DNA from: Microbacterium galbinum
Lineage (GTDB): Bacteria; Actinomycetota; Actinomycetes; Actinomycetales; Microbacteriaceae
Assembly (NCBI RefSeq): GCF_023101185.1
Contig: NZ_CP078077.1
Coordinates: forward strand, 372,001-436,000
Reading direction: 5' to 3'
Length of the DNA: 64,000 nt
The notes below the pieces were generated by a model. That model was not told where the DNA came from, made no database searches, and was given only the letters and a program-made list of their open reading frames with translations. Positions 17,017 to 50,107 of the stretch are shown here, in pieces; position 1 is the first letter of the stretch, and every line of letters starts with the position of its first letter. The translations under genes and the position numbers were made by a program.

Positions 17017-17182
17017 CCGCTTCTCCTCTCCGGAGCGCGATGCGCTCCCCTTCTCCTTGACGAGTACTGCCCAGGAATCCGTCGGACACAGCCGGTAGAA
17101 TACTGGGTGTGCACGGTGCACGCTGCGGCCGGGACGACCCGGATCGCGTCATCACCCGGGGACGGCCCCGCGAAGGAACCGG

Positions 17183-23535: not shown

Positions 23536-23608
23536 GACCCAATGAGGGGTCACGGCGGGTCGAACCGCCGCATCCATCACTACGGATCGTCCGGCACGTA
23601 CCTGCCGG
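23536..23608 (+). promoter_or_regulatory. Structured 5' leader of the MsiK-type gene: three consecutive hairpins
   Basis: Three perfect hairpins follow one another upstream of the ABC ATPase gene: GACCC-6 nt-GGGTC (23536-23551), CGGCGG-6 nt-CCGCCG (23553-23570) and CCGGCA-6 nt-TGCCGG (23591-23608). The last ends a few bases before the ribosome-binding site AAGGAG. A conserved leader RNA called the msiK motif is known from actinobacterial homologues; whether this is an instance needs a covariance-model search. Confidence 0.5.
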
Positions 23609-23623
23609 TGAAGGAGAAACACA

Positions 23624-24727
<1,104 letters not shown>

Positions 24728-46762: not shown

Positions 46763-47647
46763 TCAGTCGCGGGGCGAGAGCAGGTACGTGTTCAGCTCGT
46801 CGGTCAGAGGCTGGTCGACCGGGAGAGGGGCGCCGTCGACGGCGCTGATCGCCGTCGCGAGACGCACGCTCGACACGAGCCACGCGGCATCCGCCCGGGG
46901 AAGATCGGATGCCGGGATCCGGTCGTACCCGACCTCGAAACCGCGCGCGGCGAGGTGCTCGTAGACGCTCAGCTGCGTGGTGCCGTGCAGGATGCCGCCG
47001 TTCGGCGCCGGCGTGACGAAACGGTCTCCGAACCGGAGGATCAGCGAGGCGGTCGGCGCCTCGAGCACGAAACCGTCGCTGGAGAGGAAGATCGCGTCAT
47101 CCGCGTCACGGCGGTGCGCCTCCCGCAGTGCGGCCATGTTCACGGCGTACGAGAGGGTCTTCGCCCCCAGCAGCAGCCACGGCGCCCGTTCGGCAGCGCC
47201 GAGGTCGTAGCCGCGGTCGAGGGTCACCACACGCACACCGTTCGCGCGCACGGCATGGAAGTCCGCCGCCGGGGCCGCGGTCACCCATGCCGTCGGCGTC
47301 GGTCCGTGCTCCACTCCCCTGCTGAGGATGAGCTTGATGACGGCCTCGCCCTCGCCGCACTCGTCGGCGGCCTGATCGATCGCCTGCCGCCACTGCGCCA
47401 GGTTCGGCGCGGGCAGGTCGCACAGGCGTGCGGAGTGCGCGAGACGCTCGAGGTGCGGCACGACCTCCTGGGCGTGGCCGTCGATAACTCCGATCGACTC
47501 GAACACGCCGTCGCCGCGCTGCGTGCTCAACTCGCCCACGCTGAGGGCGGGAGCCGCCGCGTCGACGTGGGTGAACGTGTCACCGTAGTCGGCACGCTGC
47601 TCGTCGGCGGTGACGGGATCGATCATGAGTGCGAAGCGCCGGTTCAT
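46763..47647 (-). CDS. pabC: Class IV aminotransferase / aminodeoxychorismate lyase
   Basis: A 294-residue fold-type IV PLP enzyme. The PLP lysine is in LLLGAKTLSYAVNMAALREAHRRDADDAIFLSSDGFVLEAPTASLIL; the N-terminal RGDGVFESIGVIDG is typical, and LHGTTQLSVYEHL forms the phosphate-binding part. The sequence suits 4-amino-4-deoxychorismate lyase (p-aminobenzoate/folate), though D-amino acid or branched-chain transaminases share the fold. A dedicated pabA/B partner is not nearby, so the specific activity is a moderate-confidence call. Confidence 0.85.
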   Translation of the reverse strand: MNRRFALMIDPVTADEQRADYGDTFTHVDAAAPALSVGELSTQRGDGVFESIGVIDGHAQEVVPHLERLAHSARLCDLPAPNLAQWRQAIDQAADECGEGEAVIKLILSRGVEHGPTPTAWVTAAPAADFHAVRANGVRVVTLDRGYDLGAAERAPWLLLGAKTLSYAVNMAALREAHRRDADDAIFLSSDGFVLEAPTASLILRFGDRFVTPAPNGGILHGTTQLSVYEHLAARGFEVGYDRIPASDLPRADAAWLVSSVRLATAISAVDGAPLPVDQPLTDELNTYLLSPRD

Positions 47648-47691
47648 GATCCGAGCCTAGAGCGCCGGGAATACCTTCGCTCGTCTCGCGT

Positions 47692-47697
47692 TACACT
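47692..47697 (+). promoter_or_regulatory. -10 box TACACT of the putative small RNA
   Basis: TACACT fits TANNNT and its 3' end is 6 bases before 47704, the first paired base of the RNA described next. No convincing -35 was seen. Confidence 0.45.
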
Positions 47698-47703
47698 GGT
47701 ACA

Positions 47704-47789
47704 GGCCGGGCCGCATAACCCCGGGCTCCATTTTTCGCCGCTGCGAGCGGCCTTCCGCCGAGAGGCGTTCTTGCGGCCCGGTCTTTTTT
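47704..47789 (+). ncRNA. Putative structured small RNA (about 86 nt), unnamed
   Basis: A non-coding stretch between two minus-strand genes folds on the plus strand. A closing helix of 11 bp (47704-47714 with 47773-47783, one G-U pair) is followed immediately by six T (47784-47789). Inside are a 6-bp hairpin (GCCGCT/AGCGGC, 47737-47751) and a 4-bp hairpin capped by the GNRA tetraloop GAGA (47756-47767). An unpaired CCCCGGGC and a T5 run lie between the closing helix and the first hairpin. A -10 box sits 6 bases upstream of the first paired base. There is no plus-strand gene upstream that would need a terminator here. It does not show the conserved loop of SRP RNA, nor 6C or tmRNA features. Confidence 0.5.
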
Positions 47790-47815
47790 CTTGCCCGGAC
47801 TTCTTGCCCGAACTT
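47790..47815. repeat. 13-bp tandem repeat after the putative small RNA
   Basis: The unit cttgcccg(g/a)actt occurs twice in succession (47790-47802, 47803-47815) with one mismatch, directly after the T-run. No function is evident. Confidence 0.6.
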
Positions 47816-47840
47816 CCCGCTCCGGGCCGCACTCGTCCGC

Positions 47841-48470
47841 TCAGGCCAGCGCGCCCGCCCGCCACAGCACACTCGCCGCGGAGAGGTCCTGCGCATAGCT
47901 GCTCAGTCGCAGCGCCCGGGTCGTCAGTTCACTGGCCCGCCCCGGCTCGGTCGCCTCGTAGTCGTCGGCCGTATGCGTCGCTCCGGACGCCTGTACGCGG
48001 CAGAACGCGGCCGCGCGCTCAAGCGCCACCGCGAAGTCGCCGCGGAACGCTCCGCGCAGAATCGTGTCGACCAGCGCGACGATCTCCTCCGGGCTCGCCG
48101 GGACCGGAGCACCGGCGATGGCGGCGTCGACCGAGGGAAGCTCGACGCGTCCGCGCTCGTACAGCAGCGCCGAGGTCTGCGGATCGGTGTGGATCGCCAA
48201 CTGCAGCAGGTACAGCCGCCAGAGCGCACCGGGAAGCGTGCGCGAGGGCGCCTTGGACCACAGTTCCGCGATCTCGTCGATGCCGTGTTCGGCCGTGAAG
48301 GCCACCAGGCGATCGGCGCTCACACCGCTCTCGTCGGCGCGCACCCGCGCCAGCAGGGCGGATGCCGTGGCGTGCGCGATGCGCGTCTCCTCGGCGGGAT
48401 CGTGCGCCCCGACGAGGTTGTCGAAGGAGGCGGAGGGGCGTCGCACGGGGCGGTGGTGCTGCTCGGGCAT
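47841..48470 (-). CDS. Hypothetical actinobacterial helical protein
   Basis: A 209-residue protein beginning MPEQHHRPVRRPSASFDNLVGAHDPAEETRIAHATASALLARVRADESG, predicted almost fully alpha-helical, with VAFTAEHGIDEIAELWSKAPSRTLPGALWRLYLLQLAIHTDPQTSALLYERGR and EEIVALVDTILRGAFRGDFAVALERAAAFCRVQASG. No catalytic motif or named family is recognised. Composition matches its neighbours. It ends 26 bases before the repeat that follows the putative small RNA, which is encoded on the opposite strand. Confidence 0.8.
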   Translation of the reverse strand: MPEQHHRPVRRPSASFDNLVGAHDPAEETRIAHATASALLARVRADESGVSADRLVAFTAEHGIDEIAELWSKAPSRTLPGALWRLYLLQLAIHTDPQTSALLYERGRVELPSVDAAIAGAPVPASPEEIVALVDTILRGAFRGDFAVALERAAAFCRVQASGATHTADDYEATEPGRASELTTRALRLSSYAQDLSAASVLWRAGALA

Positions 48471-48499: not shown

Positions 48500-49300
48500 T
48501 CAGGCCGTGGGGATCGCGATGATCGGGTCGGTCGTGGGCAGGCCGCTCGGCGAGCCGCCCTCTTCTTCGACCGTGACGGCGATGACGTCGCCCTCGTGCA
48601 TCGAGCCGGAGAGCACGGCGGTGGCGGTCGTGCCATCGGCGTCGAACACACCGGCCGGAACCGGGGTTTCGCCGCGCACGAACCACATCTCGTACGTCTT
48701 GCCGTCGGCAGGAGCAGCGAGACCGTCGGTCACGAGCACGGCGGAGCCGAGCGATGCCGACCAGTGGGCCGTGGCCGTGGTGCCGTCGTCGAGCGTGACA
48801 CTCGCCTGCGCGGCATCCGACGCTCCCGTGATCTGCTCGAGGGCCACGACGCTCGCCGGACGGTTGAGGTAATCGTTCAGCGCGACAGAGCCGATGCCGA
48901 CGCCGACCAGAAGTGCGAGGCACGCCGCGAGCGCGAAGATCGCGCGTGACCAGCGGCGGGGCGGGCGGATGCTGTCGACCGTCGAGGTGTCGGCCGATCC
49001 GGAAGACGCTGCGGCAGGCGCGGCCTGCTCGTCGTCCGTGCGGCCGTCCTGCGGCGTCTGCGCGCCCTGCACCTGCGGCGTGTGCGCGATCTGCGAGAGC
49101 AGCGCGGCGCGGATGTCGGGCCGGGGCACTTCACCGGTGAACGGGGCCGAGAGTGTAGCGGCGGTGGCGGCATCCGCCTCGACGATGCGCTCCCACTCGG
49201 GGTGCTCGTCGAGGGTACGACGGAAGCGCGCCTCGTCCTCAGGAGAGAGCGCGTGCAGGGCGGCGCCAGCCGCGAGCTCTGCGAAGTCCTTCTCGTTCAT
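48500..49300 (-). CDS. rskA: Anti-sigma-K factor RskA
   Basis: A 266-residue membrane protein. The N-terminal cytosolic anti-sigma domain (MNEKDFAELAAGAALHALSPEDEARFRRTLDEHPEWERIVEAD) is followed by a linker, one membrane helix (AIFALAACLALLVGVGIGSVALNDYL) and an external RskA domain (ASVTLDDGTTATAHWSASLGSAVLVTDGLAAPADGKTYEMWFVRGETPVPAGVF). It holds SigK at the membrane until released, in mycobacteria under redox control through regulated proteolysis. The start overlaps the sigK stop by ATGA. Confidence 0.95.
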   Translation of the reverse strand: MNEKDFAELAAGAALHALSPEDEARFRRTLDEHPEWERIVEADAATAATLSAPFTGEVPRPDIRAALLSQIAHTPQVQGAQTPQDGRTDDEQAAPAAASSGSADTSTVDSIRPPRRWSRAIFALAACLALLVGVGIGSVALNDYLNRPASVVALEQITGASDAAQASVTLDDGTTATAHWSASLGSAVLVTDGLAAPADGKTYEMWFVRGETPVPAGVFDADGTTATAVLSGSMHEGDVIAVTVEEEGGSPSGLPTTDPIIAIPTA

Positions 49301-49896
49301 GCCATCACCCCCATCGCCGACCGGAGCCGGGTGAGTCCATCCCGCATCCGTGTCTTGATCGTCCCCAGCGGCGCCCCCAGGAGCGCCGCGATCTCGTTCT
49401 GACTGTAACCGCCGTAGTAGGCGAGGACGATCGCTTCACGTTGAGCTTCGGGTAGGCCGGAGAGTGCGCCGACGACGCGCTCACCTTCCATGCTCAACTC
49501 GACCTGCTCCGCCACGCTGTCGTGGGCCACCCCGATGTCCCGCAGTCCCGCCCGGACATCTCGATCCGAACTGGACTGCGAGGATCGGACGCGGTCCACC
49601 GCCCGGCGGTGCGCCATCGTCATGATCCATGTTCGTCCTTGCCCCTTGTTCGGAGCGAAGCGCGAAGCGGATTGCCAGATCTCGAGAAAGACCTCCTGGA
49701 GCACTTCCTCGCTCTGCGAGCGGTTCACGAGGACTCGGAGGATGAGCCCGAACACGCGGGAGGAGAGGAGGTCGTAGAGCTCCGCGAAGGCCCGCTGGTC
49801 GCCGGCGGCGATGGCGAGGAGGAGGTCGGCGACGGCATCCCGCGCCGTGCCGTCCTCGGGAACATCCATCCCATCGATGACCATCTCCATAAGCAT
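49297..49896 (-). CDS. sigK: ECF RNA polymerase sigma factor SigK
   Basis: About 199 residues. Region 2 is LLLAIAAGDQRAFAELYDLLSSRVFGLILRVLVNRSQSEEVLQEVFLEIWQSASRFAPNKGQGRTWIMTMAHRRAVDRVR; region 4 is ALSGLPEAQREAIVLAYYGGYSQNEIAALLGAPLGTIKTRMRDGLTRLR. The sequence is close to mycobacterial SigK. Alternative starts exist (49896, 49890, 49884, 49869); 49896 is kept because AGGAGG lies 13 bases upstream, though spacing favours none strongly. Its predicted target, the fasciclin lipoprotein, is divergent next door with a SigK-type promoter. Confidence 0.92.
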   Translation of the reverse strand: MLMEMVIDGMDVPEDGTARDAVADLLLAIAAGDQRAFAELYDLLSSRVFGLILRVLVNRSQSEEVLQEVFLEIWQSASRFAPNKGQGRTWIMTMAHRRAVDRVRSSQSSSDRDVRAGLRDIGVAHDSVAEQVELSMEGERVVGALSGLPEAQREAIVLAYYGGYSQNEIAALLGAPLGTIKTRMRDGLTRLRSAMGVMA

Positions 49897-50107
49897 GCCG
49901 TATTCCACCCCTCCTGCTCTGCATCCGACGCCCGATATCCGCTGATTCCTCGCGGAATTCTCGAAGATTCCGCGGCCCGCGCCCCGCATCACGATCGCGT
50001 CACGCTCGCGCGCGTGCTCCTTTTCCGTCGGATGTCGTTCGTGCTGGTGCGCCGATCGGATTGGCGGGGCCGTTCGAGACGGATCTCGAAGAAATCTCGA
50101 ATTCTTC

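Follow-up and report, generated by a model that had tools for sequence, protein, structure and literature searches.

The window considered here is a 64-kb stretch of the Microbacterium galbinum genome. Within it, the gene for PabC (matched by Aminotran_4 and by aminodeoxychorismate lyase models) starts at 47647 on the minus strand, and its right-hand neighbor, also on the minus strand (47841–48470), ends at 47841 and encodes a 209-aa protein to which no Pfam or NCBIfam model gave a match. Genes for an RskA-type anti-sigma factor and an ECF sigma factor (48500–49905, minus strand) adjoin this right-hand neighbor. The region between pabC and the gene of the 209-aa protein holds a folded RNA element of ~80 nt on the plus strand (47704–47783), built as a three-way junction with helices P1, P2, and P3. 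A preliminary description of the region had read an 11-bp helix with arms at 47704–47714 and 47773–47783, two enclosed hairpins, one of them with a GAGA tetraloop, and six T after the closing helix, with both neighbors on the minus strand. All of these are present: the closing helix, P1, extends to 12 bp once A47715–U47772 is counted and contains a single G-U pair at 47705/47782, the hairpins are P2 and P3, and the T run occupies 47784–47789. P1 renders the element nearly palindromic, and the free strand, CCCCGGGCUCCA, is unpaired in the consensus. The parts of the locus are as follows:

47667..47672, plus strand: GGGAAT, −35 box of a predicted SigR/SigH (ECF) promoter, kept in most of a 50-locus genus alignment
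47690..47692, plus strand: GTT, −10 element of the same predicted promoter, separated from GGGAAT by 17 bases
47692..47697, plus strand: TACACT, sigma-A-like −10 box overlapping GTT, read from counts of TANNNT upstream of P1
47704..47715, plus strand: 5′ arm of P1, the covarying closing helix, with 10 pairs counted class-wide
47716..47730, plus strand: free strand UAACCCCGGGCUCCA with core CCCCGG, unpaired in the RNAalifold consensus and conserved in sequence
47737..47751, plus strand: P2 hairpin, GCCGC-UGCGA-GCGGC, loop YNCGA, one pair changing from C-G to U-A in 14 sequences
47756..47767, plus strand: P3 hairpin, CGCC-GAGA-GGCG, from covariation and RNAalifold, with a double change in one sequence only
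47772..47783, plus strand: 3′ arm of P1, from the covariation count and RNAalifold
47784..47789, plus strand: TTTTTT, possible transcript end, unconserved beyond close relatives

The T run follows directly after the helix in this genome and in part of the genus and is absent in other families, so a terminator is not a conserved part of the element. A tandem repeat (TTCTTGCCCGAAC, 2.2 copies, 47788–47816) begins inside the same T run.

Energy alone proves neither the strand nor the fold. An 89-nt segment folds better than 199 of 200 shuffled sequences (z = −2.78), but the 124-nt plus strand gives a weaker result (z = −1.74, with 12 of 200 shuffles as good), the 124-nt minus strand also folds well (z = −2.76), and the middle pairing of the single-sequence energy minimum differs from the consensus. 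Both strand and fold are established by the strand scores of a covariance model (R1, built from 31 genus sequences), which gives 103 bits on the plus strand of the window versus 25.6 bits on the minus strand, together with covariation across relatives. A sample wider than the genus was needed for the latter, since double changes are absent within the genus, where all variants are of the G-U or U-G type and fit the plus strand. The alignment used, A4, consists of 80 non-redundant sequences out of 124, thinned at 0.93 similarity after omission of loci L147, L163, and the truncated L199.

In the three-helix structure, 98.6% of the 1517 cells of A4 are paired, compared with 87.7% in shuffles. Compensatory changes, which the preliminary description had proposed testing for in the closing helix and both hairpins, are absent within the genus but are found class-wide, with changes on both sides in 12 of 19 pairs (7.8 in shuffles) and in 153 cells (30.7 in shuffles). 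The covariation score is 0.356, compared with 0.131, and none of 500 shuffles reaches the observed value on any of these measures, although these counts are not a probability, since shuffles ignore relatedness. Sliding the partners by 1–3 columns keeps it, and paired cells then drop from 98.6% to 28–47%. All ten counted pairs of P1 covary, and P2 and P3 have one covarying pair each, that of P3 in just one sequence. The same 19 pairs come out of RNAalifold when it is run without a supplied structure. That the locus holds a real structured RNA can be regarded as practically certain.

Conservation takes a different form in different parts of the element. The columns of P1 vary in sequence and are kept in pairing only, whereas in the free strand and in the loops the sequence itself is conserved. 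For example, all 80 sequences agree at columns 24–26, 28, 29, and 34 of A4, which hold CCC, GG, and the last A of the free strand, and at the C and G of the P2 loop. The loops of P2 and P3 read YNCGA and mostly GNGA, respectively. The palindrome CCCGGG, which bears on an earlier suggestion that the free segment might be a dimerization site, occurs in 73 of the 80; in the other seven, a C run replaces the first G. The bases that follow CCCCGGG are CUCC in 42 of 80 sequences, UCCC in 15, and CCUC in seven, which are complementary to the Shine-Dalgarno (SD)-like sequences GGAG, GGGA, and GAGG. Exposure of the free strand is plausible rather than certain, given a mean unpaired probability of 0.54 in single-sequence ensembles (>0.5 in 57 of 80).

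The element is widespread. Within the genus, a DNA search with a 166-base region was positive for 288 of 295 genomes, or for 271 of 272 when only genomes ≥90% complete and ≤5% contaminated are counted, and it yielded one significant copy in the genome that contains the window. The preliminary description had considered the Microbacteriaceae; the element is present there, with R1 matches (E ≤ 0.01) in 232 of 249 genomes and 82 of 85 genera, but it is not limited to that family and is spread class-wide. In the order, R1 matches (E ≤ 0.1) occur in 244 of 248 genomes and 84 of 85 genera, including 226 of 230 genomes outside the family. In the class, 136 of 246 genomes match at E ≤ 1 (115 of 225 outside the order) and 130 of 246 at E ≤ 0.01, probably a lower bound since R1 is a genus model and the filters were strict. 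A second model, R2, built from 80 class-wide sequences, matched 22 of 296 genomes in a phylum sample, all 22 in the same class, with 254 of the misses not broken down by kinship.

In the family, 11 of the 17 misses are all the sampled genomes of three genera (g11, g14, and g82; 0.7–1.7 Mb) and the other six are single genomes of otherwise positive genera, four of them <90% complete. In a genus identified as Mycobacterium, the element is present in 45 of 98 genomes and missing in 53. These losses, together with those of the three small-genome genera, indicate that the element is dispensable. A pattern scan of named genomes matched at least 120 stretches, and of the 80 named loci listed, R1 recognizes 73 at E ≤ 1, including 72 at E < 0.001. 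The matching listed loci include Streptomyces, Kitasatospora, Nocardia, Gordonia, Williamsia, Geodermatophilus, Modestobacter, Cellulomonas, Arthrobacter, Rothia, Brevibacterium, Nocardioides, a [Mycobacterium], and many Microbacteriaceae; one match in the genus identified above as Mycobacterium (G1291:C195:3231–3313) has the same coordinates as named locus L173, which is the basis for that name. The seven listed loci that do not match R1 (Dyella, two of Methylobacterium, three other proteobacteria, and a Micrarchaeota bin) are taken as chance pattern matches.

Neighboring genes were examined in 26 chosen loci, with genes called by a G+C filter and several loci end-limited. The adjacency to pabC, by which the RNA had been placed at the outset, is found in the window and in one of the 26 loci (Microbacterium L219, 75.5% identity, with the same order of pabC, RNA, and neighbor), and fails in the other 25. 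Homologs of the 209-aa protein adjoin the RNA in nine of the 26, Nocardioides included; the homolog is upstream and co-directional in eight of these nine and convergent in Microbacterium, as in the window. This protein is a possible functional partner of the RNA. In six loci, a downstream gene on the same strand belongs to one family (with a weak DUF47/PhoU_div match, below cut-off), followed in four of the six by a PHO4-type phosphate transporter. In Streptomyces (L164), the RNA lies between a HelD-type gene, whose best models, HelR/HelD, score below cut-off, and a downstream gene for malic enzyme, all on one strand, and in Kitasatospora (L190), the same two genes flank an inverted RNA. Given this inversion and the changing orientation of the 209-aa neighbor, the RNA is a gene separate from its neighbors, with no neighbor-specific leader role.

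The −10 box TACACT at 47692–47697 is present as described earlier, but a −35 box that had been missed, GGGAAT, completes a predicted promoter of the SigR/SigH type, which TACACT overlaps. The preliminary description had also fitted promoter, fold, and terminator together, of which the fold is upheld by covariation and the −10 box stands with the −35 added, and the T run lacks conservation. The motif GGAA[TC]-N15–19-GTT occurs once on the plus strand of the 64-kb window, at the RNA, and four times on the minus strand, one of them with GGAAT. It was found in 125 of 199 upstream regions, which are the distinct ones with 75 bases available (L147, L163, and L199 omitted; L286, read on the wrong strand, included), and in none of the 199 on the reverse strand. 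As controls, 3498 windows from other parts of these loci gave a rate of 0.23%, and mononucleotide shuffles gave 0.6%. Among the 125 motifs, the spacer is 16 in one, 17 in 33, 18 in 74, and 19 in 17, so that 91 have a spacer of 18–19, and the GTT ends 8–13 nt before P1 in 116.

The ECF motif is far above chance but lineage-bound. By source, it was found in 46 of 48 regions from the genus, 24 of 28 from Mycobacterium, 31 of 71 from the named scan, and 24 of 52 other loci of the family, order, or class, so the pooled 125 of 199 leans to well-sampled genera; among the 80 non-redundant loci of A4, 29 have the motif and 51 lack it. A TANNNT 3–12 nt ahead of P1 is found in 78 of the 125 ECF-type regions, in 51 of the 74 others, and in 5.2% of shuffles. 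Copies from Micrococcaceae carry TTGAC-type −35 boxes by eye, and the strict pattern TTGAC-N17–20-TANNNT was found in none of the 199 upstream regions. Many other lineages appear to use a sigma-A-type promoter only.

The genome that contains the window encodes SigH (TIGR02947, 304 bits versus a cut-off of 251.55), and the best model for the gene that follows is the RsrA anti-sigma factor (TIGR03988, 59.5 bits, just under the cut-off of 62.5). This SigH gene is itself preceded by GGGGAATACC..GTT (spacer 18), whose counterpart at the RNA is GGGAATACC..GTT (spacer 17). When the upstream sequences of the SigH gene (GGAATACCTGTTGGCGCTCATCGGTT) and the RNA (GGAATACCTTCGCTCGTCTCGCGTT) are compared, the GGAAT..GTT before the SigH gene (L346, 1355–1380) has GGAATACC in common with the RNA promoter. 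The 3570-base SigH stretch has one more such motif, on its opposite strand. In the accessible text of PMC9205884, the SigR consensus is GGAAT-N18–19-GTT, and the spacer of 17 in the window is one short of this. On these promoter motifs, SigR/SigH probably controls the RNA in the ECF-type lineages.

R2 also detects relatives of 104–120 nt in large genomes, among them those of Streptomyces type. Across the 14 longer paralogs that were examined, P1 aligns, CCCCGGG is kept in all 14, a CGCCGAGAGGCG hairpin occurs in 13, a longer arm takes the place of P2, and the GGAA[TC]-N15–19-GTT promoter is found in 11. Both the longer paralogs and the RNA itself occur in tandem:

L147 976–1088, 1850–1965, and 2150–2269, minus strand: three longer paralogs, found with R2; further copies in L320–L330
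L146 892–973 and 1074–1155, plus strand: the RNA in duplicate, with a separate GGAA[TC]..GTT element for each copy

A search of Rfam, as proposed in the preliminary description, was run on release 15 and returned no family that reaches its gathering score at the element, whether in the window, in 20 class loci, or in 18 named loci; with the limit relaxed to E ≤ 1, three Streptomyces-like loci still gave no match. The best sub-threshold match in the window reached 12.4 bits versus 49.5. Together with the covariation, this agrees with the structured plus-strand RNA that had been predicted, as well as with the earlier remark that hallmarks of SRP, tmRNA, 6S, and 6C RNAs are lacking. Bacterial small SRP RNA was rejected, as there is no RF00169 match over the element and the SRP RNA of the genome lies elsewhere (C1:467124–467220, 59.2 bits), and tmRNA has no Rfam match over the element. 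Scr4115 (RF02829) lies elsewhere in three Streptomyces-type genomes. The 6C RNA (RF01066) resembles the element as an actinobacterial sRNA with C-rich unpaired stretches. It consists of two hairpins with C runs in their loops, whereas the loops of the element are YNCGA and mostly GNGA, and it gave no Rfam match. Ms1, a 6S-like RNA, was also considered, and the element is a ~80-nt three-way junction rather than a long rod of ~200–300 nt with a central bubble.

The reports cited from here on were accessible in part, and what is said of them extends to those parts. Ms1, found like the element in most orders of Actinobacteria, is scr3559 of S. coelicolor, an RNA of ~230 nt at another locus, between sco3558 and sco3559 (PMC9130861). 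By analogy with this position and name, the place expected for scr2952 is between SCO2951 and SCO2952. The former is one of two malic enzymes of S. coelicolor (PMC7494193) and the latter one of its four HelD proteins (PMC8655204), and their adjacent numbers fit the HelD-type and malic-enzyme pair of L164. The Streptomyces copies are therefore likely, though not proven, to be scr2952, a conclusion that rests on the genes flanking the Streptomyces copies and not on the S. coelicolor sequence. A confirmed S. coelicolor sRNA, scr2952 is conserved in over half of the tested Streptomyces, and the confirmed RNAs are said to be in Rfam (PMC8388888); unlike this statement, the Streptomyces loci of the element have no match in Rfam 15. 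An Rfam-based list for S. lividans does not include scr2952 (PMC8079986).

The earlier label of "undescribed" accordingly holds in that there is no Rfam family and no class-wide description was found in the literature searched, and it fails in so far as the Streptomyces copies lie where scr2952 should; one member, but not the family, has probably been seen before. In the accessible literature, no link of scr2952 to a class-wide family or to SigR was found, nor was 2952 found in HrdB-regulon work, or 2951/2952 in comparative Streptomyces ncRNA work. Likewise, this RNA was not found in the accessible parts of work on Corynebacterium glutamicum SigH/SigE, S. coelicolor SigE, or C. glutamicum sRNAs. 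SigH-driven noncoding transcripts are not new to the phylum as such, since SigH-type promoters were reported at 44 start sites of candidate small RNAs in C. glutamicum (PMC4046766); no link between these, known here by description rather than by sequence, and the element family was found. SigE sites near sRNAs are reported in S. coelicolor (PMC10771440). Such single SigH- or SigE-linked actinobacterial sRNAs (PMC4046766, PMC10771440) were nowhere found, in the parts accessible, to be described as class-conserved.

The reading preferred here, offered tentatively and with somewhat less than even confidence, is that of a ~80-nt junction RNA, transcribed in this genome by the thiol-stress sigma factor SigH/SigR, that acts in trans through its C-rich strand on G-rich ribosome-binding sites. 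Disulfide stress would free SigH from its anti-sigma factor and so switch on synthesis of the RNA, and some basal transcription by sigma-A may come from the overlapping TACACT. P1 would clamp and protect the RNA, and P2 and P3 would either keep the CCCCGGG-YYCCA strand open or serve to bind a protein. That strand might pair by a short seed with several messages and lower their translation, as stress-sigma sRNAs do elsewhere. Taken by itself, pairing of the C strand with messages comes close to an even chance. A single long target is unlikely, since a search of the genome for the 15-nt complement with ≤2 mismatches gave five further sites compared with four for a reversed control, and none of the five is at a gene start.

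The invariance of the loops and core could equally mean protein binding, which is the main rival to C-strand pairing and a real possibility, though less likely than not. In that case, the loops and CCCCGG strand would form the binding site of a protein, conceivably one associated with RNA polymerase, the ribosome, or an RNase, and the RNA would sequester or tune this protein and pair with no message. Consistent with such a role are the invariance of loop and core columns across all 80 sequences, the closed junction fold, the lack of a long complementary target, and a promoter type that differs by lineage while the RNA stays constant. However, no partner was found, the core is followed by bases that change from one SD-complementary form to another, and the RNA polymerase-binding Ms1 is a different RNA of ~230 nt at another locus (PMC9130861). 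A cis-acting leader or attenuator of the downstream gene is very unlikely: the DUF47-like gene downstream on the same strand in six of 26 loci and the malic enzyme of Streptomyces L164 fit it, but the downstream gene varies by lineage and is convergent in the window, and the RNA of L190 is inverted between the same neighbors.

Near universality in the order would suit a housekeeping RNA under another name (SRP, tmRNA, RNase P, 6C, or 6S/Ms1), an explanation made highly improbable by the absence of any Rfam match at gathering over the element in the loci searched and by the separate SRP RNA of the genome. A chance inverted repeat, a simple terminator, or a small coding gene can be set aside with near certainty. 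A T run does follow the helix in the window, and high G+C content gives strong folds on both strands, but covariation refutes a chance repeat, short of an alignment artifact, and the T run of a simple terminator is unconserved. That this is not a read-through terminator had been argued earlier from the two minus-strand neighbors. Relatives differ in element length (79–87 nt) and by one-base indels, which a conserved reading frame would not allow.

Turning back to the C-strand reading, the enterobacterial Sigma-E sRNAs MicA and RybB are similar in that a separate small RNA stands behind an ECF stress promoter. They silence messages in trans, which is only predicted for the element, and have a free 5′ seed, whereas the element is a closed junction. 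MicA and RybB are Hfq-dependent, and they are not known to share sequence or fold with the element; Hfq is not known in Actinobacteria, and no general RNA chaperone has been settled there. The CcsR/cuckoo RNAs of alphaproteobacteria are linked to stress sigma factors and carry a conserved C-rich anti-SD motif, although this motif (CCUCCUCCC in loops) and the fold are other than those of the element.

What emerges is a strongly conserved noncoding RNA that is near universal in one order, missing from Rfam, and also found in Streptomyces, Nocardia, Gordonia, and roughly half of the sampled mycobacteria. Its covariance model gives a family to one orphan Streptomyces sRNA, probably scr2952. If the promoter reading is true, the response to thiol stress would acquire a post-transcriptional side that is conserved, and the RNA would provide a tractable model for RNA biology in actinobacteria. 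A broader proposal, speculative and on balance unlikely, is that the RNA and its longer paralogs form an ancient noncoding branch of the response to disulfide stress that SigR/SigH governs in Actinomycetes, later rewired to the housekeeping sigma factor in part of one order. In this branch, an Hfq-free closed junction with an invariant CCCCGG would lower translation at G-rich ribosome-binding sites during thiol stress.

Other RNA features were noted in the window. A guanidine-II riboswitch (17129–17170, plus strand) scores 35.9 bits, just over its gathering value of 32. A tRNA-Ala called by ARAGORN (24605–24682, minus strand) is without an Rfam tRNA match at gathering and is possibly false. 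An msiK RNA (RF01747, 62.2 bits; 23565–23624, plus strand) lies just before an ABC ATPase-like reading frame, putatively msiK.
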